A DNA stretch of 64,000 bases from Synechococcus sp. PROS-7-1. Lineage in GTDB: Bacteria > Cyanobacteriota > Cyanobacteriia > PCC-6307 > Cyanobiaceae. Each line of letters begins with the position of its first letter. The first letter of the stretch is position 1. Positions 10,139 to 35,252 of the stretch are shown here, one piece after another. The notes under the pieces are model-generated. The model searched no databases, was not told the DNA's origin, and saw only the letters and a list, made by a program, of their open reading frames with translations. The stretch is from the NCBI RefSeq assembly GCF_014279795.1, contig NZ_CP047945.1, forward strand, positions 888,572 to 952,571, written 5' to 3'. Made by a program: the position numbers and the translations under genes.

Positions 10139-11596
10139 TCAGATCAGCGTTTGATCCTGGGGTGGCAAGGTGTCTGATGTCAGTCCCGTTTGGTTGAGGT
10201 AGCGATCAACCGATGCATCAACCAGGGCATCGAACTGTTCTCCACCGCCAGCGAACAAATCAAGGGCTTCGATGTAGCCATCGGTGCCGCTGCCGAGGTT
10301 GATTCCTGCCTGTTCAGCGTGCGTTCTGAGGCTGCGGGCGCGGTTGGCGGCCTGGGAAAATTCGCCTGCGTAGAGATCCTCGATGAAGGCGGTGGCCTCT
10401 TCCCTCAGCCTCTGGCTGCTGCCGAGAGAAGGAAGTCCTCCCATGGCTTTCTCGGTGAGAGCCACAACTTTGTCGGCATCGGGGAGTTGCAGGTCTTCCC
10501 AGTAGCCCGTTCCTTTCTCGGCCATGCGGGAGAGAACATTCGGGATGGGATTGACGCGCAGCAGCAGTGTTTCGGCCGCCGTGTTGAAGTCTCCGTTGAT
10601 CAGAGCGTCAAAACCACCGTTCATCTGTTCTTTGATGTCGGTGATTCCCATGCTGTCGCTCACATCGCGCACTTTGGAGAAATAGCCTCCGGTGCGCAGA
10701 TTCAGCGTTGCATCAACCATGCCGGTGAGGGCATCGGCTTTGGGCGCACCGAGGGTGATCGCATGCCCAAAGGCGCCTTCGGTGTTGTTGTCGGCGTTGT
10801 CCACGGTGTTGGCCACCAGATTGCCGACAGGTCCTGTTGCCGCCACGGCATGCTGCACGCCATCGCCGATGTTGCCCTCCTGAAAGCTTTCGATGGCTGC
10901 GAGCTGGCGCTCTTTCATGTTGGTCAGCCCGGTGCTGTCCACCAGATCGCGGGCAGCGGTGTAGAAGCCCTCGGTCTGCTTGTTGAGCGCTCCATCAATG
11001 GCTTTGGACACCGTGTCGGGTTCGTTCATCAACTGTTCCTTGACGACACCGATCTCCTGGGCCGCGCGAGGATCACGTTCAGCCGTGACTGCCTGGGCGA
11101 CTTCAGTGGCTGCATCCACCAAGGTCATTTCACCGGCGACGACTTCGCTGCCAGCGTTCACCGCTTTGGCGATGGGTGTGTGCTCCCCGGCCAGTTTGTT
11201 GACTCCTTCACTGACGCTGCTTTCCCCTGAAATCACCTGAACGGTGGTGTCAATCGCTTCCCCGACGCTTGTTTTCTTGGCGGCATCCACCAAGGCGTCG
11301 CCGACATCTTTTCCGTTGGCAACATCGATCACACCCTCCACGACGGTGCCAAGGGTGGTGTTCTTGGCCGATTCAACGAGATCAGTTCCATAGTCCTCCC
11401 AGGTTTTGTCACCGGAGGCGACCTCGATCAGACCTGTGACGCTTTTGACCAATGGCGATTCGGTGACGGTTTCTGCGACAGCACTCAGGGCTTCGGCAGG
11501 TGTTTTTCGACCGGCGACCACATCAACGGTGGAGGTGACGGTTTTGGCGACCACGTCGACAGCGGAGACGACGGCGCTGAACAGTTGAGCAAACAT
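10139..11596 (-). CDS. Repetitive alanine/valine-rich helical protein of unknown function
   Basis: 485 residues from the ATG giving MFAQLFSAVVSAVDVVAKTV; an earlier start (11629) is possible. The N-terminal half consists of degenerate repeats of about 35-40 residues that alternate segments like VVEGVIDVANGKDVGDALVD, VQVISGESSVSEGVNKLAG and GSEVVAGEMTLVDAATEV. The second half has two related blocks (FYTAARDLVDSTGLTNMKER and YFSKVRDVSDSMGITDIKEQ). The end GSGTDGYIEALD faintly resembles the tail motif of the two large surface proteins upstream. No signal peptide or obvious enzyme motif. A good terminator follows. Confidence 0.7.
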   Translation of the reverse strand: MFAQLFSAVVSAVDVVAKTVTSTVDVVAGRKTPAEALSAVAETVTESPLVKSVTGLIEVASGDKTWEDYGTDLVESAKNTTLGTVVEGVIDVANGKDVGDALVDAAKKTSVGEAIDTTVQVISGESSVSEGVNKLAGEHTPIAKAVNAGSEVVAGEMTLVDAATEVAQAVTAERDPRAAQEIGVVKEQLMNEPDTVSKAIDGALNKQTEGFYTAARDLVDSTGLTNMKERQLAAIESFQEGNIGDGVQHAVAATGPVGNLVANTVDNADNNTEGAFGHAITLGAPKADALTGMVDATLNLRTGGYFSKVRDVSDSMGITDIKEQMNGGFDALINGDFNTAAETLLLRVNPIPNVLSRMAEKGTGYWEDLQLPDADKVVALTEKAMGGLPSLGSSQRLREEATAFIEDLYAGEFSQAANRARSLRTHAEQAGINLGSGTDGYIEALDLFAGGGEQFDALVDASVDRYLNQTGLTSDTLPPQDQTLI

Positions 11597-12648: not shown

Positions 12649-14271
<1,623 letters not shown>

Positions 14272-20300: not shown

Positions 20301-21743
20301 TTGGCCCCAATCCTTCTCTTCATCACCGGCGTACTCGCTGGCTTGATTGCTGGCTTCATCCTCAGCCGCTTGTTCAGCAAAGGCCGCAGCGGTGATGGTT
20401 CCGGTGAGGCGCGTCTCCTTGAAGAGCGGCTGCTGAAGGCCGACCAGGGCCTGGAGCAATTCAGTAGGCAGCTGGAGGCCCAGAGCAGTGAACTCAAGGC
20501 AGTGCAACAGCAGGCCCAACAAGCGAGCGAACAGGCGGCGATCAGCCGCACTCAACTGGAGGGGGTGAGCCAGGAGAGAGATGCCCTCAAGGCTGGCCAT
20601 GACACTGCACTGGCAGCGATGGATCAGTTGCGCACTGAGAAGGAGAGCCTCAGCACCGCGATGGCGGAGGTGGCCGAGAAGCTGCGCAGTCAGGAAAGCC
20701 AAACCCAGTTCCTGGAGCAGGCCCGCACGGATCTGCTCACCCAGTTCCGCTCCCTCAGCGGTCAGATGCTGGATGGCTCCCGCGAAGCCTTACTCAAGAG
20801 CACCAAGGAAACGGTGAGTGAGCCGTTCGCCAAGGAGGTGTTGCAGTTACGGCAGCAGGTGGAGGCCTTGCAGAAGGAGTCCAACGCCAAGCTCACGGTG
20901 CTGGCGGAAACCACTCGCGATCTGCGCCAGCGCAGTGAAGACGTGCAAGGTGCAGCCCAGCAGCTCACCTCCGCGCTGCGTTCCCCGAATGTGAAGGGCC
21001 AGTGGGGGGAGGTAAACCTGCGCCGGATCCTTGAGTTTGTGGGCTTGATCGCCTACTGCGACTTCGATGAGCAGGTGCATGTGGGCACCGAGGAGGGCGC
21101 CTACCGGCCGGACTGTGTGATCACCATCCCCGGCTCACGCCGTTTGATCGTGGATTCCAAGGCACCGATCGAGAGCTATCTCGATGCATTGCAGGCCAAT
21201 GATCAAGCCCAACGGGACGCAGCACTCAATGAGCACTTGAAGAAGGTGCGCAGCCACATCGATCTATTGAGCAAGAAGGATTACGCCGGCAAGCTCAGTG
21301 CCCTGGGCCAGGTGGTGGATGGGGTGGTGCTGTTCATCCCGGTGGAAGGCGCCCTGTCGATGGCCTTGGAGCGAGATCCACAGCTGCTGGAGTACGCCTT
21401 CAGCAAGAACATCATCCTCACCTTCCCCACCAGCCTGCTGGCGATTTTGAAGGGATTGGCGATGACGATTCAGCAGGCGGAGATCGCCAAAAACATCGAT
21501 GAGATTCAGGCGCAGGCAGTTGAACTGCACAAGCGTTTCTCCACCTTTATCGACAAGTTCAACGACATCGGCAGCAACCTCACGCGCTTGAACAAGAGCT
21601 TCAATGCAGCGGTGGGTTCAGCGCAGAGCCGGCTCTTGCCGCAGGGTCGGCGTTTTGCAGAGCTGGCGGGGCAAAGCGGTGAGATTGATGTGAGTGATCC
21701 AATCGATGAGGTTGTGCGTGAGATTCAGGCGGGGGAGGTTTGA
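20301..21743 (+). CDS. rmuC: DNA recombination protein RmuC
   Basis: 480 residues with a TTG start. Order: N-terminal membrane anchor (PILLFITGVLAGLIAGFILS), a long coiled coil (about residues 35-200, rich in Q/E), then the conserved RmuC nuclease-like core (NVKGQWGEVNLRRILEFVGL, YRPDCVITIPGSRRLIVDSK, ALERDPQLLEYAFSKNIILT). RmuC is linked to limiting recombination between inverted repeats and to defence islands. Its 3' end recurs behind the next gene and its first 33 codons recur at 40.58 kb. Confidence 0.93.
   Translation: MAPILLFITGVLAGLIAGFILSRLFSKGRSGDGSGEARLLEERLLKADQGLEQFSRQLEAQSSELKAVQQQAQQASEQAAISRTQLEGVSQERDALKAGHDTALAAMDQLRTEKESLSTAMAEVAEKLRSQESQTQFLEQARTDLLTQFRSLSGQMLDGSREALLKSTKETVSEPFAKEVLQLRQQVEALQKESNAKLTVLAETTRDLRQRSEDVQGAAQQLTSALRSPNVKGQWGEVNLRRILEFVGLIAYCDFDEQVHVGTEEGAYRPDCVITIPGSRRLIVDSKAPIESYLDALQANDQAQRDAALNEHLKKVRSHIDLLSKKDYAGKLSALGQVVDGVVLFIPVEGALSMALERDPQLLEYAFSKNIILTFPTSLLAILKGLAMTIQQAEIAKNIDEIQAQAVELHKRFSTFIDKFNDIGSNLTRLNKSFNAAVGSAQSRLLPQGRRFAELAGQSGEIDVSDPIDEVVREIQAGEV
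21702..21737 (+). repeat. Left copy of the rmuC-tail direct repeat
   Basis: Encodes IDEVVREIQ plus GE at the end of intact rmuC. It matches 22684-22716 with one substitution and a three-base codon difference. The EVE-HNH gene lies exactly between the two copies. Confidence 0.8.
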
Positions 21744-21746
21744 TTG

Positions 21747-22691
21747 ATGGCGTTCTGGTGGGTGAATCACAAGCAGACCTTCCGGCAGGAAACGGAAGGT
21801 GGCTACATCTGGTCGCCTAAACAAAATGCCAATGGCGCCAAGAATGTCAGTTACGACAACTTGGCGCGCTGCCAGGTGGGTGATGTGGTGTTCAGTTATG
21901 CGTACGCCAAGATCAGCCAGATTGGTTTGGTGGAATCGGTGGCGGAGACGGCACCAAAGCCACCTGAATTTGGCAGCACAGGAGAGTATTGGGGTGAAAA
22001 CGGCTGGCTGGTGAGGGTGAATTGGCAGCCCCTGCAACAGCCCTTGGTGCCGCGCGAACACTTTGAGCTGATTCAGCCACTGCTGCCTGAGCGCCATAGC
22101 CCGATCAGTGCAACATCAGGGCGGGGCAATCAGGGGGTGTACTTGGCAGGGCTTGATGAGGCGTTGGGCCATCTGCTGATCAAGATGATTGAGCAGCATG
22201 CTGATGCAGCGATCAAGGTTCATCTCCTGGTGCTGGCAGAAGAGCGTGATTCTTCCCACGCACTTTTCGATGATGTGCAGGCCTTACAGGAGGTCGTGAG
22301 CACAACGGAGCGAGATGCATTGACCAAAGCACGATTGGGCCAGGGTCTGTTTCGGCATCGTGTTGCTGAACAGGAGTCGATTTGCCGTGTAACTGGTTTG
22401 GCTAGGCAAGAATTCCTCATTGCCAGCCACATCAAACCCTGGCGGGATTGTGATAACCATGAGCGGCTCGATGGTGCCAATGGGTTGCTTCTTTCTCCTC
22501 ATGTCGACAAATTGTTTGACCGGCATTGGATCAGTTTTGACTCTGATGGCCAGTTGATTTGGCAACACGAAGCAGCAGCAGATGCGCTCCATTGTTGGGG
22601 CATTGCGTCAGCCAATGTGATTCGGCCCTTTAGTCGCGAGCAAGAGGCGTTTCTTGAGCAGCATCGGCGCCACCTGCGGACAGATCGATGA
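21747..22691 (+). CDS. EVE/PUA-like - HNH endonuclease, putative modification-dependent restriction enzyme
   Basis: 314 residues; the ATG begins 3 bases after the rmuC stop (a TTG directly before it is also possible). Residues 1-100 (FWWVNHKQTFRQETEGGYIW, YDNLARCQVGDVVFSYA) look like an EVE/PUA-type modified-base-reading domain. The C-terminal part is an HNH nuclease: CRVTGLARQEFLIASHIKPW, then NGLLLSPHVDKLFD. EVE-HNH fusions are known type IV-like restriction enzymes that cut DNA with modified bases. The gene is bracketed by two copies of the rmuC tail, and its last codons lie inside the right copy. Confidence 0.8.
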   Translation: MAFWWVNHKQTFRQETEGGYIWSPKQNANGAKNVSYDNLARCQVGDVVFSYAYAKISQIGLVESVAETAPKPPEFGSTGEYWGENGWLVRVNWQPLQQPLVPREHFELIQPLLPERHSPISATSGRGNQGVYLAGLDEALGHLLIKMIEQHADAAIKVHLLVLAEERDSSHALFDDVQALQEVVSTTERDALTKARLGQGLFRHRVAEQESICRVTGLARQEFLIASHIKPWRDCDNHERLDGANGLLLSPHVDKLFDRHWISFDSDGQLIWQHEAAADALHCWGIASANVIRPFSREQEAFLEQHRRHLRTDR

Positions 22692-22716
22692 GGTGGTGCG
22701 TGAGATTCAGGGGGAA
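22684..22716 (+). repeat. Right (displaced) copy of the rmuC tail
   Basis: Reads IDEVVREIQGE-stop in the same frame type as rmuC, where the intact gene has IDEVVREIQAGEV-stop. It lies directly behind the EVE-HNH gene and overlaps its last bases. The AT-rich end of the defence island follows. Confidence 0.8.
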
Positions 22717-22808
22717 TAAAGTTCTGTTCGTGTGGAATTCGCGCGAAGATATGATTATTTTTTTGATTCTGCGAATTTGTTAGTGAGGTCTAAAAGTGGA
22801 TAGATCAA

Positions 22809-25784
22809 TTACGAGTGTTTGCTCAAGATGTCATCGAGGTTTGTGGCTATTTCATAGTGAGCCGCTCTATCACTACCGCCTAAGGCTTGAAAGTGAGCTT
22901 TCCCGCACTCGATTTTTGCTCGCTCCTTGTCACGTAGGTCATCGGCGAATTTGCCGCTCTTGGTCTCCACCACGAAGTAAAGCTTCTCGGATCCATCCTG
23001 CTCGATGAGCAGTGCCCAGTCTGGGTTGTAGCTTCCCAGAGGGGTTGGAATGGTGAACCAGCCAGGCAATTTGGCGTACACCTTCACAGCACTGTTGTTC
23101 TCCAGCTGGTCTCCAAAGCTGCGTTCGGTCTCAGAGTCGTAGATCACTTGCTCATAGACGGCTTTGGAAGCATTAAGAAGATTTCTGAGATAGCCGGTCA
23201 GCTCCTCTTGTTCGAAGAGCTCCTGCGCGTAGTAGTGCTCATCGCCAAGGCGCTGATACTTGATGCCATCAACAACTGCAAAGCGTTTACAGCGATTGAT
23301 TGCCTCGGCGGTGAGCTCGATAAAAACTTGCGGATTGCGTTTGAAATCATCGAGCCGCCGACTACCGCGCAGAATGCGCTGCAGGCTTCGCCTGGTGAGC
23401 TGTGTGCGGTCCTGAAGGTCCGTGAGCAGATCAGGAAGCTCAATGTCACTTTCGTTGAGCACCACTGTGGCCGCTCCCACGCGCTCTGTTGCTTCCACTC
23501 CTGCCTGTCCAATGGCGAGGTCAGCCTTGCGCCACTGCAGGCGGGTTTTCGCAATCTGCGGCGCTTCCTGCACAGCGCAAATACATTTCTCGATCAGCCA
23601 TTCGTTGTCGAACTCAACTCTGTAAGTCGTCTTGTGTTTGATGCGATCCCATAATGCCCTGAACTCAGGGCTGTGCAGTACGGCCTGTCGGGTACGTACC
23701 TGACGGCGTTCATCAGCGTTCTTGATCTCCAGGCGACCAGCCAGTTTCTTGAGCACGGCTGTTATTTGGTCACGCTGTGCTTCGAATAGCTCTGGCACGC
23801 TGAGCGTGTCGCTCTTCAGTGCCTGGCGGAGCGAATCCTGCACCTTGCCTTTGTTGTCGAGATGGCCTTCTGCCTTTAAGTGCTCCCACAAAACCTTGGA
23901 CTGTTCAACACCCAGAGGAATAGTGCCGCCGTCAGAACTGACAACAGCAACGTTGGCGAACTCGTGGGGTTCCACGACACCAAAGCGAATGCCAGTGTCT
24001 TGTTCAATTTCCTTCTGCAGATTTTCTGCAAACTGCTCGTAGCTCTCCATTGCAACGACGGTCAAGGTATTGACGTCAAAACCCCGGATGCGATCACCCT
24101 CCTGGTTGACACACAGGCGAAGTCCACGGCCAATAGTTTGTCGCCGTTCGCGTTCCGTTGAAATATCTCGCAGAGTGCAAATCTGGAACACATTAGGATT
24201 GTCCCAACCTTCTTTCAATGCTGAGTGCGAGAAAATGAACTTCAAAGGAGTTTGAAGCGATAACAGCTTCTCTTTCTCCTTCATGATCAGGTTGTAGGCG
24301 CGCTCAGCACAGTCGCGGTTCGACTGATTGTTCTCGGCGGTATTTGTCCACCCTCCAGCCTTGTCAATCGAAAAGTAGCCGTTGTGTACAACTTCTGCGG
24401 CATGCGAAAGGTCTACTTCTTGAAACAGTGTGTGGTAGTCAGGCATTGTTGCTGCACGCCGATACTCCTCTTCAAAGATGCGTGCGTAGTCGCCTTTAAT
24501 GGGATTCCCCTCACTGTCATAGGAACGGTATTTCGCCACTTCGTCGATGAAGAAGAGAGAGAGAACCTTGATGCCTTGTGGGCGCAGACGCTTCTCCTTA
24601 TCGAGGTGCTCACGGATCGTGCGACGAATCATCTCGCGCTGGACGGCCAACAGATCTACATCGCCCCAAGCTTGTCCAATCCGCAGATACTGCTCACCGC
24701 CAGGCACACGCAGCTGAAGGTATTCATCGCCCTTGGCGACACGGATCTCGCCGATCAGGCAATCGGAATAGATAGAACGGCCCGTCGTCTGCTTTAAATC
24801 ATCACCATCTTGCACATTCACTGCCTGTCGTCGAATCCCACCCGCAGCTGTTTGCATATCCAGCTGAACCTGAGCGCTAATCGTGCCGCGCTGATTTTTC
24901 ACCGATAAAAGCCGCACGTAAGGCTTGTTGTGAGCATCTTCCACGGTGGCTGAGGCCACCTCGATTTGTTTGACAAGCCGCTTCTCGTAGGCGTCGACTG
25001 CATCCAGGCGATAGACCATGTGATGTCGATCAACGTGGGTAGCGGAAAAGCGGAGCGTGCAGAGTGGATTCATTTCCTCAAGAGCTTTCTTCCCACTTCC
25101 TTTCAGGCCCCCATCAACACTCTGTGGTTCATCCACAATCACAATGGGCCTTGTGGCCTTGATCAGATCAATCGGCTCTTCTCCGCCTGTTTTTTCGCTC
25201 TTCTTGTAGAGGTTGTTGACGTCCTTCTTGTTGATGGCGCCAACGGTTACCACCATGATCTGGATACTGGCGCTGGTTGCGAAATTCCGAACCTGGCCGA
25301 GCTTATTGGAGTCGTAGAGAAAGTATTCGTAAGGCACTCCTGCGTAGAGGCCTTTGAAATGCTGTTCCGTTATCTGCAGTGATTTGTAGACCCCTTCTTT
25401 GATTGCCACGGAAGGGACCACGATGACAAACTTTTGGAAGCCGTAGCGCTTATTCAGCTCAAAGATGGACCGCAAGTAGACATATGTCTTTCCGGTACCA
25501 GTCTCCATCTCAACAGTGAAGTCACCCGACGTGAGCTCAGTTGATGGTGCTAGGCCATTGCGAAGTTGGATGTTGGTAAGGTTTTTGAGTAACTCGTCAT
25601 CTAATAGTGACAGGCGGTTACCAACGCCCAGGTCACTCTCAAGACCAGGTATGAACGCTCCACCTAGAGCACTCTTGGTGACGGTGAACTCGGTACGGCA
25701 GATCTCCTGACCTCGAAATAAGTCACAAACTGATTCGATCGCTTCAAGCTGATAGTCGAGATTGGGTTCGAAGTGGAGCTTCAT
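22809..25784 (-). CDS. res: Type III restriction endonuclease subunit (Res)
   Basis: 991 residues. An SF2 helicase core with Walker A METGTGKTYVYL, motif II VDEPQS and late motifs (SHSALKEGWDNPNVFQICTL, QTIGRGLRLCVNQEGDR). A C-terminal nuclease part shows NPDWALLIEQDGSEKLYFVV followed by ETKSGK, which is the PD-(D/E)xK site (D, E, K). This is the layout of EcoP15I-type Res subunits: ATP-driven DNA sensing and cutting with the Mod subunit. Last gene of a five-gene operon, 10 bases behind mod. Confidence 0.94.
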   Translation of the reverse strand: MKLHFEPNLDYQLEAIESVCDLFRGQEICRTEFTVTKSALGGAFIPGLESDLGVGNRLSLLDDELLKNLTNIQLRNGLAPSTELTSGDFTVEMETGTGKTYVYLRSIFELNKRYGFQKFVIVVPSVAIKEGVYKSLQITEQHFKGLYAGVPYEYFLYDSNKLGQVRNFATSASIQIMVVTVGAINKKDVNNLYKKSEKTGGEEPIDLIKATRPIVIVDEPQSVDGGLKGSGKKALEEMNPLCTLRFSATHVDRHHMVYRLDAVDAYEKRLVKQIEVASATVEDAHNKPYVRLLSVKNQRGTISAQVQLDMQTAAGGIRRQAVNVQDGDDLKQTTGRSIYSDCLIGEIRVAKGDEYLQLRVPGGEQYLRIGQAWGDVDLLAVQREMIRRTIREHLDKEKRLRPQGIKVLSLFFIDEVAKYRSYDSEGNPIKGDYARIFEEEYRRAATMPDYHTLFQEVDLSHAAEVVHNGYFSIDKAGGWTNTAENNQSNRDCAERAYNLIMKEKEKLLSLQTPLKFIFSHSALKEGWDNPNVFQICTLRDISTERERRQTIGRGLRLCVNQEGDRIRGFDVNTLTVVAMESYEQFAENLQKEIEQDTGIRFGVVEPHEFANVAVVSSDGGTIPLGVEQSKVLWEHLKAEGHLDNKGKVQDSLRQALKSDTLSVPELFEAQRDQITAVLKKLAGRLEIKNADERRQVRTRQAVLHSPEFRALWDRIKHKTTYRVEFDNEWLIEKCICAVQEAPQIAKTRLQWRKADLAIGQAGVEATERVGAATVVLNESDIELPDLLTDLQDRTQLTRRSLQRILRGSRRLDDFKRNPQVFIELTAEAINRCKRFAVVDGIKYQRLGDEHYYAQELFEQEELTGYLRNLLNASKAVYEQVIYDSETERSFGDQLENNSAVKVYAKLPGWFTIPTPLGSYNPDWALLIEQDGSEKLYFVVETKSGKFADDLRDKERAKIECGKAHFQALGGSDRAAHYEIATNLDDILSKHS

Positions 25785-25794
25785 CTTCGAGTCC

Positions 25795-27711
25795 TCACAA
25801 GCTCCGCACAGTGGTAATGCCGTGCTGGTTCAATATGGCTGTGAGATTTGTTTTGGCTACATCATCAGTAAATGCGCTGTCGCGGAACACGCAGGTTGTA
25901 TCGCCTGCTGGGGCAAGTGCCTGATGCCAAGTGATGAATCCTTGGGCAAGAGGCTCAACATTTTCACGGTTGATTTCTTGCGCAAGGCAAGCCATCAAGA
26001 CACCACCGCCAATGCTGTGCACGGCTTTGCCCGCTATTTCTTTTTGTTCGATCGGCACGCATAGATCAAGTCCGAGCTTGAGAAGTAACTCGTAAAGAAT
26101 GTCCTCCTCGGTGCGCCCTTCTTTAATGTTATTTGTGTAGTCCAGAATGCTCTGATCTAAATTTTTTAGATCCGGTTCCCATGCGTGGATATTGCTAGTA
26201 TCAAGCATGAAGCTACGAAATCCAAAATCAGCAATTGAGAGCGAGTAGTTGTCTTTTATTTTAACTGCAGCACGTCGCAATCTTTCTTTAGTAAGCTCTG
26301 CAAGATTAGGCTTAATGCCAATTTTTTTACACGTATCGGCCGCAAACTTCTGATTTTTGTCGGATGGGTCGAGGCGCTCCGGGAGCTGCACCAGAATGTA
26401 CCTACGGCTTCCGCCATCTTCTGCATTGGCTTCCAAAACCGCGTGCGCAGTTGTTCCGCTTCCAGCGAAGAAGTCAAGGACAATACTATTGGATTCCGTC
26501 GCAAGATTACATATCTTCCTGAGAAGTTTTACCGGTTTTGGTGTTTGGAAACAGGCTTCACCGTCAAACAAGGCCTTCAACTCAATGCTTGCCTCCTTGT
26601 TTGAGCCAAAATCTTCATGCCTCCACCATGTACTTGGTGTAAGGCCGTCAGGCGCTTCTGCAAGAAATTTCTTTAACATCGGCCGCCCTTGCCCCGATTT
26701 TCCGAAAGTTATCCGATTATCAGCCAACCATGCCTCGTACTGGTCTTCATTGCATCTCCAGTACCTTCCTTGAGGCGGTGAGAACTTGAGTCCAGTTGGC
26801 CCTTCTATTTCATATTGTCCTGCGGAGTAAAATTTACCGGCCGAGAGGTTTTCGGCTTTCCAAGGTCCACGTGGATCGTTGTCCGGATTTGCGAATTTAG
26901 ATTTCTGCTCCTCTGATCTATCAACTTTTCCCATGGACGCACGAGTTGAATCTTTTGCGTATATCAAGATGTGATCATGGGTATTGGATATATGTGCAGC
27001 TGTCATATTTGCGGTATATGCTTTTTGCCAAACGGCATTGCCGACAAAGTTTTCGGGGCCAAAAACTTCATTTGTCAAAGTTCTGAGATGCCCAGCTTCG
27101 CCATCATCTATTGAGATAAAAATGAGGCCATCATCCCTGAGCAAGTTTCTTGCAAGCACAAGCCTGGGATACATCATATTGAGCCAGTCGGTATGAAATC
27201 TTCCGCTTGCATCTGCATTGCTGGTAAGTGCTCGACCACTCCCGGTTTGTCCAGTTAACTCCAAATAGTTTTTGATGCTATCTCTGAAGTCATCTGGATA
27301 GACAAAGTCAATTCCTGTGTTGTAGGGTGGATCAATATAAATAAGTTTTACCTTGCCCGCGTAGCTCTTTTGCAAGAGTTTTAGTACCTCTAGATTGTCC
27401 CCCTCGATCATCAGATTCTGCGTAGTTTCCCAGTCCACGCTCTCTTCCGGGCAGGGCCTCAATGTGCCAGTTGAGGGCTTGAGCGCCAGTTGCCTGGCCT
27501 GACGTTTGCCATGCCAATTGAGGCCATATTTCTCGTCGGCGTCAGACACAGTTTTGTCGCCGACCAGCGCCTTCAATACATCCACATTCACAGCGGTCCC
27601 TTCCGGCCCTTCTGTCACCAGCTCTGGAAATAGCGCCTTTAGCCGCTCGAGATTGGTTGCGGCCAGGTCGGGGCTCATGGTCTCGGGATCGCCAAAAGTC
27701 AGTTTTTTCAT
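25795..27711 (-). CDS. mod: Type III DNA N6-adenine methyltransferase (Mod)
   Basis: 638 residues. A beta-class amino-methyltransferase: the catalytic motif DPPYNTGIDFVYPDDF comes first (about residue 127) and the SAM motif LDFFAGSGTTAHAVLEA later. The target-recognition region between them (about residues 200-400) and part of the C-terminus are clearly richer in A+T than the ends, as if exchanged with a foreign source. With Res it would form the type III restriction complex; alone it methylates and protects host DNA. Located 13 bases behind DUF4391. Confidence 0.95.
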   Translation of the reverse strand: MKKLTFGDPETMSPDLAATNLERLKALFPELVTEGPEGTAVNVDVLKALVGDKTVSDADEKYGLNWHGKRQARQLALKPSTGTLRPCPEESVDWETTQNLMIEGDNLEVLKLLQKSYAGKVKLIYIDPPYNTGIDFVYPDDFRDSIKNYLELTGQTGSGRALTSNADASGRFHTDWLNMMYPRLVLARNLLRDDGLIFISIDDGEAGHLRTLTNEVFGPENFVGNAVWQKAYTANMTAAHISNTHDHILIYAKDSTRASMGKVDRSEEQKSKFANPDNDPRGPWKAENLSAGKFYSAGQYEIEGPTGLKFSPPQGRYWRCNEDQYEAWLADNRITFGKSGQGRPMLKKFLAEAPDGLTPSTWWRHEDFGSNKEASIELKALFDGEACFQTPKPVKLLRKICNLATESNSIVLDFFAGSGTTAHAVLEANAEDGGSRRYILVQLPERLDPSDKNQKFAADTCKKIGIKPNLAELTKERLRRAAVKIKDNYSLSIADFGFRSFMLDTSNIHAWEPDLKNLDQSILDYTNNIKEGRTEEDILYELLLKLGLDLCVPIEQKEIAGKAVHSIGGGVLMACLAQEINRENVEPLAQGFITWHQALAPAGDTTCVFRDSAFTDDVAKTNLTAILNQHGITTVRSL

Positions 27712-27724
27712 CGATTCGATGCTC

Positions 27725-28483
27725 TCAGAGGCGTGTCAGTGCGGAGGCTCGTGCCGCTTCGGTGCGCTTCAGTGCCAGGTTTAGTTCTACCTGCCGGGGC
27801 ATTTGTTTCTCTTTTGCAGCGGCAGCCCGCAGGCGGTTGATCTCGGCTCCCAGCCGAGAGGCTTCGCGCAGTGCCTCCCGCCTGGCCAAGGCATGCTCAG
27901 GCGTCGACGGCAAGCTGAAGCTCCCTGTGATCTGAGCCGCTAGCAGAGCTAGCACCGCATCGACACAACCTTGGTAAAGCTTGTATAGATCAGCTCTCGG
28001 CAGCGAGCTCAGCGAGAGAGCTCCAAGAAACAACGGGATTACCTGGGAGGAGTTGGCCGTAGCTAGAGCAGCCGCCACCAGGTCTCCATCTAGCACCGTG
28101 GCACCCGCCTCCCCTTCGGACCAGCGCTTGTGCGCTAGTGAGAGGGTGAGTCCCGTACCAACGTCCATGAGCAGGAAAAGCGGGTAGGGCACGGCACGGT
28201 GCAGGAGTTCTGTCAGCCTCTCGGCTTTGCTGTCCGCACGCAAGGTCACGTTCAGAACTGCAATTTCCAGGTATTCACGCGTCGCATCACGGAACGCAGG
28301 CACACCGATCGTGGTGGGTTTGAGCGTTGCCACCCACTGGACCTCTTCAATACCTTCTTTGATTCGTTGCTTATCCGCAGCCGTTGGAGCTCCATGCTCC
28401 AACAGCAAGGTTTTGGGTACCCGCCGGTCCACCCGTGCATTGGGTGGCAGATCCAATGCGGCAATCAGGTCGGTAGCGATCAT
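27725..28483 (-). CDS. DUF4391 domain protein
   Basis: 252 residues. The features of DUF4391 are visible: a start of MIATDLIAALDLPPNARVDR with KTLLLEHG, a middle VQWVATLKPTTIGV, and a C-terminal coiled coil (LGAEINRLRAAAAKEKQMPR). The biochemical role is unknown, but the family is typically coded beside an SNF2-type helicase and a DNA methyltransferase, as here. Its start overlaps the stop of the SNF2 gene by 4 bases, so translation is probably coupled. Confidence 0.85.
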   Translation of the reverse strand: MIATDLIAALDLPPNARVDRRVPKTLLLEHGAPTAADKQRIKEGIEEVQWVATLKPTTIGVPAFRDATREYLEIAVLNVTLRADSKAERLTELLHRAVPYPLFLLMDVGTGLTLSLAHKRWSEGEAGATVLDGDLVAAALATANSSQVIPLFLGALSLSSLPRADLYKLYQGCVDAVLALLAAQITGSFSLPSTPEHALARREALREASRLGAEINRLRAAAAKEKQMPRQVELNLALKRTEAARASALTRL

Positions 28484-31400
28484 GTAGCCGCCTCCGGAAG
28501 GATCGCAAGGAAGGCAATCACCTCAAAATCATCGATCCCGGCAAACTCGCCAGGCAACACGTGCGTTCCACCCGGCGCGAACAAGCTGGCGACGGCACGT
28601 TGTTCCGTCTTGCCGGCAACGGAACCCACTGCTGCTGCCAACAAGCGCTGGGCGTGACGCATGTCCGCGCCTTGCTTCGTGGCTTTGTCAAAGCGAGCAC
28701 AAGCCGCTTGGTTGGGTTGGTCCCGCCCACCACAGAGTCGCTTTAGCCGGTCAAGGATGCATTTGGCCTGGGTAAAGGGAAGCAGTACGGCACCGTCATC
28801 GCTCATGTGCACGAGGTAATGGGGTGCCATGGGGTACCCAGGCTCGAAAGCCTGCTTGGCAGCCTCGCCCTCGGCGCGAAGACAGAAGATGATGCCGGGG
28901 GGCAGATCGGCATCAGCCGTTGTGGTCACGGACATCGTGCCCAGCGGCAACGTGTCCAGCACCTCGGGGTGTGCCCGCCTGTACTCAGCGAGGTCGATGC
29001 GGAAGTCGCTCAGCGTCAGGTCGGCGATAGAAACGCCAGTGGAGAGGTCCTCGAGATCGATGACCGCGTCTTGGAGCTTCAGGAGCTGCTTACGCCGATA
29101 CTCAAGGTCATTCATCGGGTTTCCCGACTGCTGCTCGATCAGGTTCTCCTCGCCTGTGGCAGAGATGTCGAGCAAGACCATGCGCCCGCTGACGCGCTGT
29201 TCCAAGTTGATGTATTCCTCAAGTTCCATGTTTGGCCAGAAGTTGACCAGCTGAATCCGCTCGTTTGGTGAGCCAAGGCGGTCGATGCGACCGAAACGCT
29301 GGATGATCCGCACTGGATTCCAATGGATGTCGTAGTTGATCAGCCAATCGCAGTCCTGTAGGTTCTGCCCCTCTGAGATGCAGTCGGTGGCGATCAGCAG
29401 GTCGAGTTCACCCTCGTCCGCAAGCTCGGCAGGCCGTTCCTTTGCGCGTGGCGCAAAAGCAGACAGGATCGATCCCAAGTCCTTTCGCAGAAGCGGCAAA
29501 GTGGCTTGGTTGCTACCAGTGCCTGTGACCAAAGCCGTATGGATACCAAGAGTGTTGTTTGCCCACGGAGCAAGCTGCTCGTAGAGATATCTGGCGGTAT
29601 CGGCAAAGGCCGTGAAGACAATCAGCTTGCGGTTGCCGGGATTGATTGGCTGTTGGCACTTTTGATCAATCAGCTCGCGCAAGGCCTGGAGCTTGGCGTC
29701 CCGCTGTGGCTTTACGTCTTGGGCAGCTGCGACGAGCTTGACCAGCCTGTCGCGGTCTTCGCTCAGGTCCTGCTTCCAACGAACAAGGTCGACATCCTTG
29801 AGCAGGACTTTGACCTTGCGGCCCACGAGAAGGCTCTCAAAAGTTGGATCGTCAAGGTCCACATTCTCGATGTCTAGACCCTCGAGCTCATCAGCTTGTG
29901 CCTCGATGCGAGCCAGGGTGGCTTCTACGTCAGAGAGCTGGCGTTGCAACGTCAGAGCAAAGGATGAAACAGCGCTTTCCATTCGCTTGAGTACGTTGAC
30001 GCGCAGAAGATGGATCAGGCTCTCCTCGCGGTCTGCCTGGCGAAAGAAACCGCTGCCTCCCTTGACCTCGGTGCTGTACTTGCGGTCATAGGCCGCCTGC
30101 CTATGCGAGAGCACATAGCGCAATGGCGCATAGGAAGCCAGGTTCAATCGGCGGATCTCTCGATTGATGTCGGCAATGGGCAGGAAGGCCCCTGCACTAT
30201 CCACATCTGCCTTGATATTGATTGGCTGGAGACGATCAGGGAAACGACCTGTCTCGGCGGTGCCGTAGTACTTCTCGATGTGCCGCCTGGATCGCGCGAT
30301 CGTTAGATGGTCGAGCAGCGTGAAGTAGTCGAAGCCCAGCATCTCGACCAAAAGAGAGGGCGTACGGTCCGGCTCCTCCAGATCGAGCCAACGGTTGAAT
30401 TGCTTCTGCGCTAAGCGAGTGGTGGCGTCAATGCTGTTGATGCCATGGTCGATCAAAGCTCTGTCGTCACCTTCCGTCGCGAATGAAATTTGGTTGCGTA
30501 GGTCAGCAAGGCGATTGTTAACCGGGGTGGCCGACAACATGAGCACCCGTGTCTTCACTCCCTCGTGAATGATCTTGCGCATCAACCGGTCGTAGCGGGT
30601 CTCGCCTTCCGCTTGGGGCGTCTTCTTGTTTCGGAAGTTGTGCGATTCGTCGATGACGACGAGGTCGTAATTGCCCCAGTTCACATGGGCAAGATCAATG
30701 TCGCCCGATAGTCCAGCATCGCGTGAGAGGTCCGTGTGGTTCAGGACGTCATAGTTGAAGCGATCCGCAGCAAGGACATTCCGACGATCGTTTGCTATGT
30801 AGAGAGTCCAGTTGTCGCGAAGTCGTTTCGGGCAGAGGACCAAAACGCGGTCATTCCGCAATTCCTGGTACTTGATGATGGCCAGTGCCTCGAATGTCTT
30901 GCCGAGCCCAACGCTATCGGCAATGATGCATCCTCCAAACCTGTTGAGTTTGTCGATTGCGCCGATCACTCCATCACGCTGGAATTTGTAAAGCTTGTTC
31001 CAGACGACAGTCTGGCGGATTCCCGTCGCGGCGTTAACGATTTGATCTTCATCTAGTTGATCTTCTGGCTTGTGAAAAATGCTTTCGAGTATTAATGCAT
31101 AAATGCAGGCCGGGTCTTTATGGTTCGCTATTGTCTGCAGGTGCTCAATGAGTGCATTTTTCGCTGTTTCGTCTTCTAGGGCATCCCATTGTTCCTTGAA
31201 CCATGTGTTAATTGCCTTTGCTTCTTCCTCGCTTTCAGATGCTTGAATTAGATTGAGCGGATTTCCGGGAGATAATCCAAGCCCGGAGTCGCTTAGCGAG
31301 AGCGAGCCTATTAGCGCTTTGATTGGTTTTTGGCCTGAGTCTCTGATGACAAATGCGCCCTGGGGTATATTCGTTTTCGCGTTGCGTATTTGAAAATCTT

Positions 31401-31674
31401 TTTCTGCAAGGTTGAGGATTTGTTTGGTTATCCAGCGCAAGCGAAGTGTGTTTCGTGAGTGCCTTTCTTCTGTGGATCCTGTTGTTTTGAGGTCTGATCC
31501 CTTGGGGGCGAGGATTAGTTGGAACTTTTGAAAATTATATTCACTTTGCAAGAGCCGTGAAAACGCAAAAATAGAAAAGCTGTTCGTTATGCCGCAAAGC
31601 TCTTCTCCTTGGCTTGAAGTTGCTTGGATCTCGTCAATTGCTCTGTTATTTGCTGAGTTTTTTATGAATCTCAT
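28480..31674 (-). CDS. SNF2-family helicase with degenerate PLD-like N-terminus
   Basis: 1064 residues. Helicase core: Walker A ADSVGLGKTFEALAI, motif II VVIDESHNFRNKK, motif III MLSATPVNNR, motif V ATDCISEGQNLQDCD and motif VI QRFGRIDRLGS. The first 170 residues resemble a phospholipase-D-like domain (ALIGSLSLSDSGLGL where active members have GSxNLTxxGL), but no HKD catalytic set is visible, so it is probably inactive. That N-terminal 600 bases is much richer in A+T than the rest. ATP-driven DNA translocation in a defence complex is inferred. Overlaps both neighbours by 4 bases. Confidence 0.9.
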   Translation of the reverse strand: MRFIKNSANNRAIDEIQATSSQGEELCGITNSFSIFAFSRLLQSEYNFQKFQLILAPKGSDLKTTGSTEERHSRNTLRLRWITKQILNLAEKDFQIRNAKTNIPQGAFVIRDSGQKPIKALIGSLSLSDSGLGLSPGNPLNLIQASESEEEAKAINTWFKEQWDALEDETAKNALIEHLQTIANHKDPACIYALILESIFHKPEDQLDEDQIVNAATGIRQTVVWNKLYKFQRDGVIGAIDKLNRFGGCIIADSVGLGKTFEALAIIKYQELRNDRVLVLCPKRLRDNWTLYIANDRRNVLAADRFNYDVLNHTDLSRDAGLSGDIDLAHVNWGNYDLVVIDESHNFRNKKTPQAEGETRYDRLMRKIIHEGVKTRVLMLSATPVNNRLADLRNQISFATEGDDRALIDHGINSIDATTRLAQKQFNRWLDLEEPDRTPSLLVEMLGFDYFTLLDHLTIARSRRHIEKYYGTAETGRFPDRLQPINIKADVDSAGAFLPIADINREIRRLNLASYAPLRYVLSHRQAAYDRKYSTEVKGGSGFFRQADREESLIHLLRVNVLKRMESAVSSFALTLQRQLSDVEATLARIEAQADELEGLDIENVDLDDPTFESLLVGRKVKVLLKDVDLVRWKQDLSEDRDRLVKLVAAAQDVKPQRDAKLQALRELIDQKCQQPINPGNRKLIVFTAFADTARYLYEQLAPWANNTLGIHTALVTGTGSNQATLPLLRKDLGSILSAFAPRAKERPAELADEGELDLLIATDCISEGQNLQDCDWLINYDIHWNPVRIIQRFGRIDRLGSPNERIQLVNFWPNMELEEYINLEQRVSGRMVLLDISATGEENLIEQQSGNPMNDLEYRRKQLLKLQDAVIDLEDLSTGVSIADLTLSDFRIDLAEYRRAHPEVLDTLPLGTMSVTTTADADLPPGIIFCLRAEGEAAKQAFEPGYPMAPHYLVHMSDDGAVLLPFTQAKCILDRLKRLCGGRDQPNQAACARFDKATKQGADMRHAQRLLAAAVGSVAGKTEQRAVASLFAPGGTHVLPGEFAGIDDFEVIAFLAILPEAAT

Positions 31675-34600
31675 GGCATTGATCCGTTGGCTTCGATTGA
31701 GGGATAATTAGAGTTTTGTCTGTTTTTCCTTGTGCCGATAAGGCACAACTGATTGATCTGCTCGGCCTCCGCCACCGTGTTGGCGACGCCACTGGCTAGG
31801 CCAGGTGAGCCCACCACGATCGAGAGGCATTGGGCGCGGCTGATTGCCACGTTCAACCGGTTGGGCTCCAGCAGAAAGCTCAACCCCCTCGGTGCTTCAT
31901 CGCCGCTGCTCGCCGTGAGCGAGTGAATGGCAACCGGGGCTTCCTGGCCCTGGAACTTGTCCACCGTGCCCACCCGGGCTTTGCCAGCCAGCCGTTGCTG
32001 CAGCCGGTTCACCTGCACGTTGTAGGGAGCCGTCACCAGGATTGTGTCTGGCGTGAGCGTGCCTGCTGCGATGCCCCCGGCTTTGGCGTGTTGATAGCTG
32101 CCCCCCAGCAGGGCATCCACCAGCGATTCGATGCGGTTGATTTCTTCTTCGCTGCAGACGCTGTTGCCGCTGTGCGCCACCGGATCAAACACCAGGCCTT
32201 GTCCTTGTAATAGCTGCCCATCACTGCTTTGCCAGGGTTTGGCCCATGTGATGCAATTTCTGCCATTGGCGGGGCTGGCCTGCAGCCGGCCCTCATAAAA
32301 CAAGGCACTCACCATTGCGGTGAGGCTTGGTTCCATCCGCCAGCTGGTGGAGAGAAACACGCCGCGATCGCTTGGCACCACCGAGGCGCCTTCCATCCAG
32401 TACTCCAGGCAGCTCTGGCCTGACTCCCCGGGGTGATCGGCCTGGGAGGGCTGGGCCAACTGCTGTTGATCGCCCACCAGCAGGATCGAGCGGGCACAAC
32501 GCGCCATGACCAGCAGATTGGCGAGCGACATCTGCCCCGCCTCATCCACCACCAGCCAATCGAACTGCTCTGCCAGCTCCTCTTTGCAGAACATCCAGGT
32601 GGTGCCGCCCACCACCGCCATGGCCTCCGAGAGTTGGCCGGGCTTCACAACGCTGATGCCTGCCGCGCTCAGCGCTTCTTCTTTGCTGTTGTTGCACTTC
32701 ACCACCTCGCCGGCCACCCCTGCAGCGCTGCAGGTGCTCTTGGCTTTTTTGAGCAGGTTGTTGATGGCGGCATGGCCGTTGGAGCTGATTGCCACCCGTT
32801 GGCCTGAGGCCACCAGTTGGGCGATCACCTGGCCGGTGACGGTGGTTTTACCCGTGCCCGGTGGGCCCTGCAGCGCCAGGCTGATGCCTGAGTGCTCCTG
32901 CAGGAAACCCGCCAGGGCATCAGCAACCGCGTTGGGATCTCCGGCAATGGCTGCATTGAGCTCTTGCAGTGCCGGCAGCGGTTGCCGTTCCAGCAGTTGC
33001 AGGATTGCCGGCGGGATCGCCTGGTGCTCGTGCACCCACGCCATGGCCTGCTCTTCCAGCCGTTCGCGCAGGCTTTTGCTGATGTCGGCCGGCACCTTGA
33101 TCACCGAGGTGGCGTCTTTGGGGATGCCTTCGCCTTCGCCGTTGGCGAGGCGTTGATCGCGCTTGCTCCAGGGCAGCTTCAGGCTCAGCGTTCCCCGTTC
33201 GGCATCGAGCGCATCCACATCCAGCTTCAGGCCAGTGGCGGGCAGTTCAACGGTGAGCCGGCTGTCGCCATCGCCGGCATGCAATTTCAGCGTTTGGCTG
33301 GGGTCAAAGCGGAAGTGGTGGATGTCGGCGCCGGTGCGGGCACTGGGGCGTTCGTCCATCCCCACCCATTGGGCGTCGGCGATCGCTTCGCCGTCGTCGA
33401 TCAGCTCCGATGGACTGAGTTCGGCCTTGGACCGGCGATCGAAATAGGCCCACCAGCCCACCTTGGCTTCGCGGTGGTGGAACGGCAGCAGCTGAGCCAG
33501 CAGCCTGTGGGCCCGCCAGCTCATCCCGCGCGGCCCCAGTTCACCTTCATCAACCAGGTGATCGGGGATCTCCTCGAGCAGCTGTTGGCTGAGCAACTCG
33601 AGGGGTTGCGGTTCCCGTGGCTCCTGATCAGCCTCATCCAGGGGCTGCTGCAGGGGTTGCTCCGGCAGGCCTTGCTCACGCCTGAGCTTCAGCAGCCAGT
33701 CGTGCAGGAACACGGTGCTTTCGCAGTCTTCGCGGTTGTAGTCCTCAATCGCCTGCAGCTTCGGGCTGGCGTCCGGCGATTCACCCGGTATCTCCGGCTC
33801 GCCGGAGAGTTGCCAGTGCAGGTAGGCCACCACCGAATCGCCGGCGTTGGTCACCCCCGCCTGGCGTTGCTCCATATAAAGGTGCTCCACCTTCTTGATC
33901 GAGTAGCTCGGCTCACCCAGCACGATCGCGCTGGTCACCACCGGCAGCAGGTCCACCAGCAGGCCGCTGCGCAGCCAGTCGTCGATCTCGGCTTCCCGGG
34001 TGGCGTGCTGCTGCGCCAGACGCCGCATCGCCGTTTTCTCGTAGGCCGCGTAGTGGTAGACGTGCAGGCCCGGATGGCTCCGCCGCCGCGCTTCCACCCA
34101 ATCGACCCAGGCAGCAAAGGCTGCTTTTTCTTCGGCCTCACTGTGGGCCCACCAGCCCTTGAAGCGGGGCTTGTCCTCCGGACTGTCGCGATAGCAAGCA
34201 CCGAAGAGGTATTCGAGCTTGGTTCCCGCCACGGAATCCTGGATGCCCTCCATGTCGAACCAGATGTCGCCGGGATCCGCTGCCGGCAAGGCAGACAATC
34301 CTTTGCCCGCCACCAGCGGCCGAAGCCGAAAGGCCGGGCGGCCGTCAGAACCCACAGGGGTGAGTTGCAGTTCGGCTTGTTGGCGCAGCTCATGCAACGC
34401 CTCGCCAGACAGCCCTTTCACGCTGCTGCCAGCCGGCAACGCCGCCAGCTGCTCGATTGTGTTGATACCGTCGGCGCGCAGTTTCTGGCGTTGGCTCTGG
34501 CGCATGCCCGCCACCAGCATCAGATCACGCTGCTGCTTGAGCCGTTCGTCGATGAAGGCCGTCCAGCTGCCGTGATCACCCGGGGCATCTTCCGGTGGCT

Positions 34601-35204
34601 GGCTTGGGTCAAAGCTCTGTTGAAACGCCGTGAAGCGTTGGCGCAGCAGTTGGTACCAGGCCCAGAATTGATCGGTGGCGTAGTGCTGAAACTTGCCGCC
34701 ACCCAGGTACAGCTCGAACTGATCGGGGCGATGTCCCAGCAGCGGCGTGAGCAGTTCGCAGTAGGCCGAGGCCTGCACCAGGAAGGTGGTTTTCGGCTTA
34801 CTTGCCAGCTTGCATTCGATCGGGATGTAGCTCCAATCGCCCAGGGCCGATGGCTGCTCGATCTTGCGCAACAGATCGGCACTGCCGCGCATGCCGCCAT
34901 GGCACAGCGAGGCCTGATGGATGAAGTCCACTCCTTCTGCCATCGCAGCCTGGGTGGCGGCGTAATCGGCCTCGCTTTGTTTGCCTGGTAGGCGGGCAAT
35001 CCGGTGCCCTTCCTTCTCCAGCTTCTCGAGCAAGACCTGCTCGTGGCGCAGGCCATCGGCAAACAGTTGCTGATCCAGCTCACTCACCGCTGGCTTGTTG
35101 CCATCAAACAGCTTGCGAGCTTCCAGCTCCTGCCACCACGCCCCGATCACCGGGCTGATCGAGAACAGCGACAGCTGGCTAGGGGTGATCAGGCGAGTGG
35201 GCAT
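31671..35204 (-). CDS. RecB-like / DEDD exonuclease - SF1 helicase fusion (TM0106 family)
   Basis: 1177 residues in three parts. (1) Residues 1-220: RecB/Cas4-like nuclease, with IECKLASKPKTTFLVQASAY and the start SLFSISPVIGAWW. (2) About 300-540: RNase H-like DEDD exonuclease (DIWFDMEGIQD, HYAAYEKTAMRRLAQQ, EDYNREDCESTVFLHDWL). (3) About 770-1150: SF1 helicase with GPPGTGKTTVTGQVI, VVDEAGQMSLANLL and a late VGTVDKFQGQEAPV. Such TM0106-type fusions are known but poorly characterised. First gene of the operon; its stop overlaps the SNF2 start by 4 bases, which ties it to the restriction genes. Confidence 0.88.
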   Translation of the reverse strand: MPTRLITPSQLSLFSISPVIGAWWQELEARKLFDGNKPAVSELDQQLFADGLRHEQVLLEKLEKEGHRIARLPGKQSEADYAATQAAMAEGVDFIHQASLCHGGMRGSADLLRKIEQPSALGDWSYIPIECKLASKPKTTFLVQASAYCELLTPLLGHRPDQFELYLGGGKFQHYATDQFWAWYQLLRQRFTAFQQSFDPSQPPEDAPGDHGSWTAFIDERLKQQRDLMLVAGMRQSQRQKLRADGINTIEQLAALPAGSSVKGLSGEALHELRQQAELQLTPVGSDGRPAFRLRPLVAGKGLSALPAADPGDIWFDMEGIQDSVAGTKLEYLFGACYRDSPEDKPRFKGWWAHSEAEEKAAFAAWVDWVEARRRSHPGLHVYHYAAYEKTAMRRLAQQHATREAEIDDWLRSGLLVDLLPVVTSAIVLGEPSYSIKKVEHLYMEQRQAGVTNAGDSVVAYLHWQLSGEPEIPGESPDASPKLQAIEDYNREDCESTVFLHDWLLKLRREQGLPEQPLQQPLDEADQEPREPQPLELLSQQLLEEIPDHLVDEGELGPRGMSWRAHRLLAQLLPFHHREAKVGWWAYFDRRSKAELSPSELIDDGEAIADAQWVGMDERPSARTGADIHHFRFDPSQTLKLHAGDGDSRLTVELPATGLKLDVDALDAERGTLSLKLPWSKRDQRLANGEGEGIPKDATSVIKVPADISKSLRERLEEQAMAWVHEHQAIPPAILQLLERQPLPALQELNAAIAGDPNAVADALAGFLQEHSGISLALQGPPGTGKTTVTGQVIAQLVASGQRVAISSNGHAAINNLLKKAKSTCSAAGVAGEVVKCNNSKEEALSAAGISVVKPGQLSEAMAVVGGTTWMFCKEELAEQFDWLVVDEAGQMSLANLLVMARCARSILLVGDQQQLAQPSQADHPGESGQSCLEYWMEGASVVPSDRGVFLSTSWRMEPSLTAMVSALFYEGRLQASPANGRNCITWAKPWQSSDGQLLQGQGLVFDPVAHSGNSVCSEEEINRIESLVDALLGGSYQHAKAGGIAAGTLTPDTILVTAPYNVQVNRLQQRLAGKARVGTVDKFQGQEAPVAIHSLTASSGDEAPRGLSFLLEPNRLNVAISRAQCLSIVVGSPGLASGVANTVAEAEQINQLCLIGTRKNRQNSNYPSIEANGSMP

Positions 35205-35252
35205 GGCTGCTTGTTGGCCCTTCCATTTTTTTGCATTGGCCCATTTCTCGCA

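Follow-up and report, generated by a model that had tools for sequence, protein, structure and literature searches.

Do five tightly packed genes in the genome of Synechococcus sp. PROS-7-1 form one defence system, or have parts with separate histories been joined in one operon? The genes lie on the minus strand of a stretch of 64,000 nucleotides (nt) that we refer to as the window (assembly GCF_014279795.1, contig NZ_CP047945.1, positions 888,572 to 952,571). The genome, on one 2.57-Mb contig, carries two PsaA/PsaB genes, in keeping with a cyanobacterium. The first encodes a nuclease fused to an SF1 helicase (31671..35204, 1177 amino acids, aa), called SF1 below. It is followed by an SNF2 motor (28480..31674, 1064 aa), a DUF4391 protein (27725..28483, 252 aa), the type III adenine methyltransferase Mod (25795..27711, 638 aa) and the type III restriction subunit Res (22809..25784, 991 aa). 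A preliminary description, made from the letters alone, gave the same five open reading frames (ORFs), with overlaps of 4 and 4 nt and gaps of 13 and 10 nt, and we confirm this layout. The overlap at 31671..31674, between the SF1 stop and the SNF2 start, joins SF1 to the rest. The five genes are probably transcribed as one message, and neither the promoter-like sites (5 found, 6.3 expected) nor the terminator-like sites (22 found, 17.0 expected, standard deviation 3.8) were clearly above chance. The same description took the five genes to act as one unit. Our analysis suggests two units instead: the last four recur as a cassette in most of 80 other loci, and SF1 is separable from them.

The domain names given earlier to the five proteins hold when checked with Pfam, PADLOC and NCBIfam-type profiles. 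SF1 has a TM0106 RecB-like nuclease (TIGR03491, 215 bits against a cut-off of 97.45; motifs ECK at 130 and QASAY at 144), a DEDD-like RNase_H_2 domain and an AAA_11/AAA_12 helicase (GPPGTGKT at 780, DEA at 887) that resembles Upf1 and Dna2. The SNF2 protein has SNF2-rel_dom and Helicase_C domains (DESH at 342, QRFGRIDR at 792). Its top PADLOC model is C3a139 'HKD+Snf2' (7e-115, residues 141-1053) and its closest solved sequence relative is RapA. The PLD-like N-terminus is degenerate, as had been described, with the HxK motif absent. The AlphaFold2 (AF2) model of this protein is poor overall (predicted local distance difference test, pLDDT, 55.5), residues 1-200 being better, and we take its top Foldseek match, SauUSI (E 2e-6), a PLD-helicase restriction enzyme, only as a hint. 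The DUF4391 protein matches PF14335 with 237 bits (E 3e-70; curated cut-off 29.9) and is predicted to form an alpha/beta domain with a C-terminal helical hairpin. Mod matches N6_N4_Mtase and the PADLOC model MTase_III (2e-232), with DPPY at 127 and FAGSG at 415; among its solved relatives are 6k0w (1.7e-79) and the Mod subunit of EcoP15I (4zcf, 1.2e-58). Res, an ATPase with a PD-(D/E)XK nuclease, matches ResIII, RE_endonuc and the PADLOC model REase_III (1342 bits), with GTGKT at 96 and PD..ExK starting at 921, and its solved relatives include the Res subunit of EcoP15I (4zcf_C, 1.4e-67).

We searched genome contigs with an alignment of five DUF4391 proteins and retained the best 80 of 189 relatives, a choice by which the set leans towards close relatives. 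Upstream of DUF4391, 76 of the 80 loci had SNF2; downstream of it, 75 had Mod and 64 had Res. In the four loci lacking SNF2 the room for it never exceeded 4 kb. Mod was missing despite more than 4.5 kb of room in two loci, and Res despite more than 9 kb in one. The sources of the DUF4391 relatives include Pseudomonadota, Nitrospira, Myxococcales, Planctomycetota, Verrucomicrobia, Acidobacteriaceae, Caldilineaceae, Cyanobacteria and Paenibacillus. Judged by gene order and domains, SNF2-DUF4391-Mod-Res is a cassette conserved across several phyla, a type III restriction-modification system to which an SNF2 motor and DUF4391 have been added. A small regulator gene upstream of SNF2, which several plasmid loci had suggested as a fifth core gene, was dropped because it was present in only 9 of the 71 loci with room for it.

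Plasmids carry the cassette too. Among 72,556 plasmid records 48 had a DUF4391 match, plus one phage record, and the gene order was identical in the plasmid or phage contexts viewed, among them those of Methanomethylovorans (an archaeal plasmid), E. coli, Enterococcus, Vibrio, Shewanella and Lactococcus. Eleven plasmid or phage contexts were annotated, with incomplete gene tables, and 10 of them showed an SNF2-type helicase, DUF4391 and Mod; the Sphingobium context has transposases inside and no annotated SNF2, and Res is not annotated in those of Acetobacter and Desulforapulum. This four-gene variant of type III systems seems to be widespread across bacteria and to have reached at least one archaeal plasmid. 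Close to the window it is rare. Of 386 genomes of the phylum, 10 had a DUF4391 match, five of them above the Pfam cut-off, and the C3a139 SNF2 family was present in 56 genomes at E<=1e-40; besides the window, none of these matches to either family was in its genus or family. Four outside cyanobacterial loci (L046, L051, L052 and L080) carry the cassette, and the DNA fetched around it contains neither SF1 nor RmuC.

SF1, by its distribution, is a resident gene of the cyanobacterial family of the window and is separable from the cassette. It matches 14 of the 386 phylum genomes at E<=1e-40. Proteins 74-93% identical to it occur in five family members (genomes G272, G227, G291, G189 and G330), where we found no DUF4391 match and no C3a139 match at E<=1e-40. 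In a tree of 22 SF1 proteins the one from the window falls among the family SF1s, in an eight-row clade with support 98/97. At the DNA level SF1 is 91-92% identical to two genomes of another genus, whose other matching stretches are 72-79% identical. Towards the cassette, the DNA matches to relatives break off at 31742-31751, so that roughly the last 70-80 nt ahead of the SF1 stop codon are not covered. At the 5' end of the gene, seven of the eight near-full-length matches finish at 35190-35209, close to the start codon; the eighth, in G401, runs on to 35331.

The opposite border is marked by RmuC (20301..21743, plus strand, Pfam RmuC 4e-84), which is convergent with the cassette; DNA homology on this side ends at 21736-21737 in five relatives. 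Between both borders lies a variable segment (21738..31742) for which relatives matching both flanks have no homologous DNA. It contains an HNH_2-domain ORF, Res, Mod, DUF4391, SNF2 and the final ~23 codons of SF1. The HNH_2 ORF (21744..22691, plus strand, start uncertain, Pfam HNH_2 6e-12) comes directly after RmuC and may be extra cargo; at E<=1e-4 no relative of it turned up in any other locus fetched. In nine genomes a variable segment is flanked by RmuC and SF1, either intact or reduced to remnants: that of the window, G399, G401, G388, G390, G189, G272, G227 and G291. In G388, which matches the window on both sides at ~78-94%, SF1 is internally deleted, and a GmrSD_N gene and an SNF2 gene lie between RmuC and the SF1 remnant. 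G291 keeps a fragment of RmuC and G189 has two copies of the hotspot. At one of the two RmuC-SF1 loci of G189 (L176, L167/L206) both border genes are disrupted, and a PLD-ResIII-DUF3427 gene lies between them. RmuC was found in 8 of 10 SF1-bearing relatives tested, once as a fragment only. It had also been considered as a member of the cassette and was rejected, being near none of the 80 outside loci.

We consider it fairly probable that the operon is a chimera, formed when the four-gene cassette entered this hotspot, with RmuC ending on one side of it and the 3' end of a resident SF1 on the other. The earlier suggestion of a composite of two systems thus stands as to the composite, with the cut moved: it falls between SF1 and the other four genes, not between the first three genes and Mod/Res. 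Several observations weigh against the chimera or blur it. Not one of the 80 outside loci had SF1 ahead of SNF2, and in 53 of them the room was at least 3.6 kb. RmuC and SF1 are not strictly linked, since among the family members in the 386-genome sample four have both genes, four have only RmuC (G169, G239, G270, G316) and five only SF1, one of these being G291 with its RmuC fragment. The idea that the SF1 tail always tracks the cassette had to be given up, as G401 shares the DruE-type tail. The GC content at third codon positions, 0.48-0.64 in the cassette genes, 0.76 in RmuC and 0.77 in SF1, is weak support because six other genes of the window range from 0.56 to 0.80. The only repeat at the cassette borders was one 9-nt inverted match.

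The gene clusters behind SF1 differ from genome to genome: relatives with an SF1 78-94% identical to that of the window have Hma-like, ARMADA-like or type I operons in this place. In G272 and G227 it is an Hma-like operon (HmaC DUF499 ATPase, HmaB DUF1156 methylase and a PLD/SNF2 helicase). G291 and G399 have DruE-like and DpdE-like genes, which in G399 flank a GmrSD_N gene and in G291 are followed by an Eco57I methylase; by their domain matches these operons are probably ARMADA-like. HsdM-HsdS-HsdR follows in G401 and SbcD/SbcC-like genes in G221. SF1 overlaps the next gene, stop codon against start codon, by 4 nt in four genomes (that of the window, G272, G227 and G221) and by 1 nt in three (G291, G399 and G401). 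By these comparisons, unrelated restriction systems sit behind one nuclease-helicase at one site, which is a new aspect of such loci. The order TM0106-SF1, SbcD-like exonuclease, SbcC-like ATPase is found both in G221 (L169) and on a Sphingobium plasmid (L028), two distant hosts, and is possibly a three-gene system of its own.

How SF1 relates to these neighbours can be read in two ways. It could be an autonomous defence or repair gene acting alone. The cassettes would then be neighbours drawing on its promoter or taking it as a homology handle, and their products would not be coupled to it biochemically. We lean away from this explanation, while regarding it as quite possible. TM0106-SF1 is present in 165 of the 72,556 plasmid records, and in the six contexts viewed it lies near unrelated systems (type I with McrBC, ubiquitin-like genes, BREX-1, WYL and others). 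It also stands with no cassette directly behind it in G330, where only small opposite-strand ORFs follow, and in the second copy of G189, where no ORF of at least 100 aa is found for ~0.75 kb. Two facts speak against such autonomy: the overlaps of 1-4 nt with five cassette types in the family, that of the window included, and the separate appearance of TM0106-SF1 inside the four-gene operon, between SNF2 and DUF4391, in 3 of the 80 loci (L038, L065 and L094). These three embedded SF1s, from Nitrospira and Verrucomicrobia, form a clade apart (100/100) and the operon-embedded label needs two changes on the tree, which means at least two separate unions of TM0106-SF1 with the cassette, at different slots.

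The second possibility, which we put forward tentatively and hold to be less likely than not, makes TM0106-SF1 a common chassis whose far border is RmuC. It would supply a shared module for processing DNA ends, and a single junction close to the SF1 stop would serve for exchanging whole restriction systems unrelated to one another (type III with SNF2-DUF4391, Hma/BREX-related, ARMADA-like, type I). Each would regain the stop/start overlap, and SF1 would be co-translated with the system currently present.

Turning to the cassette itself, we examined the nuclease motif of SNF2 in 102 proteins, taken from the window and from those 101 of 117 loci whose SNF2 ORF exceeds 850 aa with a score above 250. 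HxK was present in all nine SNF2 proteins with an Eco57I-type methylase as partner and in three of three with no partner seen. It was absent from all 86 accompanied by Mod/Res and from all four with DUF4391 only. It is in cyanobacteria that the C3a139-type SNF2 family adjoins Eco57I-type methylases. DUF4391 has a parallel there, since by profile comparison it resembles the N-terminus of Eco57I-type methylases. Against Pfam DUF4391, L014 gave 1.9e-9, above the cut-off, and L015 6.7e-6, below it; with a DUF4391 profile on a small database six of eight Eco57I-type methylases matched. Comparing DUF4391 with the Eco57I N-termini, hhalign gave a probability of 95% (E 3.4e-8) for a diverse alignment and 71% (E 3.8e-5) for a closer one. 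The AF2 model of DUF4391 is confident (pLDDT 93.8) and had no PDB match by Foldseek at E<=0.001, nor did the sequence at E<=1; the VIA-align matches listed mainly cover the C-terminal helices.

This similarity is the reason to propose that DUF4391 may dock the SNF2 motor to the methylase. We infer that DUF4391 couples the two and that Res took over cutting from the PLD domain. Some results speak for caution here. The correlation between motif and partner may reflect one ancestral loss, because the rows are related, and of the nine SNF2 proteins with an Eco57I partner, L293 and L294 are distant. L014 is the only Eco57I N-terminus that reaches the Pfam cut-off, L017 and L018 gave no Pfam DUF4391 row at 1e-3, and two of the eight methylases had no match in the small database.

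In the mechanism that we propose, Mod would recognise and methylate an asymmetric site, and Mod-Res would attack unmethylated DNA as other type III systems do, an activity established for EcoP15I. DUF4391 would dock the SNF2 ATPase onto Mod, bringing a second motor that translocates on DNA or clears it. The PLD domain would no longer cut, since Res supplies the nuclease. SF1, a Dna2-like nuclease-helicase probably on the same message, would process the ends made by whichever cassette follows it. A different role for SNF2 and DUF4391 seems unlikely to us, namely that of regulators which do not aid restriction and instead hold back or remodel Mod-Res on the DNA, or remove RNA polymerase from it as RapA does. 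The position of RapA as top solved sequence relative of SNF2 and the loss of the PLD motif in the branch partnered by Mod/Res speak for this role. The HxK-bearing relatives beside Eco57I methylases, where no Res was seen, suit an origin as effector instead.

That all five genes are one new dedicated multi-nuclease system is very improbable. Its attractions are the tight overlaps and the presence of TM0106-SF1 within the operon at L038, L065 and L094; yet the other 77 outside loci have no SF1 in the DNA fetched, close SF1 orthologues occur without the other four genes, and both the slot and the clade of SF1 differ between the window and the embedded cases.

We also approached the cassette from Res, searching this family at E<=1e-60 in 274 genomes of the class of the Bordetella genome G407 (locus L064). 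The 24 places listed, some being parts of a single gene, gave 19 Res regions. Res was present in 18 genomes. Five had the C3a139-type SNF2 and DUF4391 nearby (G407, G457, G683, G581 and G493, the last with a truncated SNF2), and in four the region was cut by a contig end (G606, G487, G466, G662). The remaining nine had neither in the DNA fetched, among them G611, with another SNF2-like helicase near Res, and G634. The latter is a point against a fixed cassette, its Res being close to that of the window and accompanied by a Mod fragment only, without SNF2 in the DNA fetched. Mod/Res thus occur without SNF2/DUF4391 and the converse is hardly seen, so that of the two separations proposed earlier as a sign of two independent systems side by side, one does occur and the other is rare. 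An independent SNF2-DUF4391 pair beside an ordinary type III system is hardly credible, for although Mod/Res of the wider family do without the pair, the two DUF4391 loci mentioned above are the only ones without Mod despite room.

The cassette also proved to be a carrier. Gaps of at least 300 nt separate SNF2 from DUF4391 in 14 of 76 loci, DUF4391 from Mod in 17 of 75 and Mod from Res in 34 of 64. Overall, 49 of the 80 loci show one or more of these gaps, and not every gap contains a gene. The gaps hold 65 ORFs of at least 150 aa in 33 groups; at least one of these ORFs is spurious (inside the SF1 of L094). Pfam matched 17 of the 20 representatives scanned, with types such as GmrSD-type, RhuM, Schlafen AlbA, Abi_2, Fic, YhcG/DUF1016, TIR, Macro, AAA, subtilase and DEAD-box helicase, among others. 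PADLOC matched 9 of 10, including the IetA, IetS, SoFic, AbiD and PDC-S02/S05 models. The GmrSD and Schlafen groups each recur at more than one junction. The four-gene operon itself carries other defence genes at three internal junctions (L037-L116), and the TM0106-SF1 of L038, L065 and L094 counts as such cargo. A further case is a genome of the same phylum (L011:7713-9929), in which an AAA_13-type ATPase lies between DUF4391 and Mod. L012 has inserted ORFs between DUF4391 and Mod (10426-11169) and between Mod and Res (13117-13500), whose N-termini look membrane-like by eye.

Finally, we compared the operon with known systems. With type III systems such as EcoP15I and EcoP1I, in which a Mod2Res1 complex cuts between inverted sites, it shares adjacent Mod and Res and their catalytic motifs, the EcoP15I subunits being among the solved relatives; it differs in the SNF2 and DUF4391 genes upstream and in the cargo possible between subunits. 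Class 1 DISARM consists of DrmA, DrmB and DrmC with DrmD and a methylase. The likeness to it raised earlier finds no support: among the matches listed only SNF2 matches DrmD/DrmA models, and NCBIfam DrmD gives 160 bits against a cut-off of 610. Mokosh has MkoA with MkoB, or MkoC, and the best-matching stretches of the Mko models lie within the helicase part of SF1 (residues 859-1151). C3a139 'HKD+Snf2' proteins beside Eco57I methylases belong to the same SNF2 family (L015 and L017-L019 are 38-43% identical to the SNF2 protein of the window) and go with a DUF4391-like domain; there, however, this domain lies within the methylase, no Res was seen and HxK is present, whereas the SNF2 of the window matches the profile over most of its length and lacks the catalytic HxK.

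Hma (HmaABC), BREX-related and with an HKD+Swi2/Snf2 helicase (PMC12839542), has the same logic of SNF2 helicase and methylase. The parallel drawn earlier applies to the site, where the Hma-like operon of G272 and G227 fills the same hotspot behind a related SF1, and not to the window proteins: the five have no DUF1156 or DUF499 in the full Pfam tables at 1e-3, and no HmaB/HmaC row among the PADLOC matches listed. ARMADA (PMC12458937) combines a YprA/Druantia-like helicase, a RapA-like helicase and a methylase, and is the probable hotspot filler of G399 and G291; the five proteins of the window have no YprA-like helicase by Pfam. Backup defence genes carried with a restriction system have precedents in PrrC of the EcoprrI type I locus and BrxU of a BREX island (PMC12707154), but here they are carried by a type III-SNF2-DUF4391 operon, at three junctions inside it. 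The RmuC domain of Shield/ShdA serves in phage defence (PMC10270631), while here an ordinary RmuC marks the border of the hotspot. The four-gene set is apparently unnamed so far. In the open-licence PubMed Central (PMC) papers searched we recognised none naming it or the RmuC-SF1 hotspot, and a single one mentions DUF4391, in passing.

The RmuC-SF1 hotspot offers a natural series in which closely related nuclease-helicases are paired with different restriction systems, and this makes the notion of a shared downstream DNA-degrading partner of restriction systems directly testable. In turn, the correlation between the SNF2 motif and its partner suggests how a helicase-nuclease restriction complex may have handed cutting over to a separate subunit.

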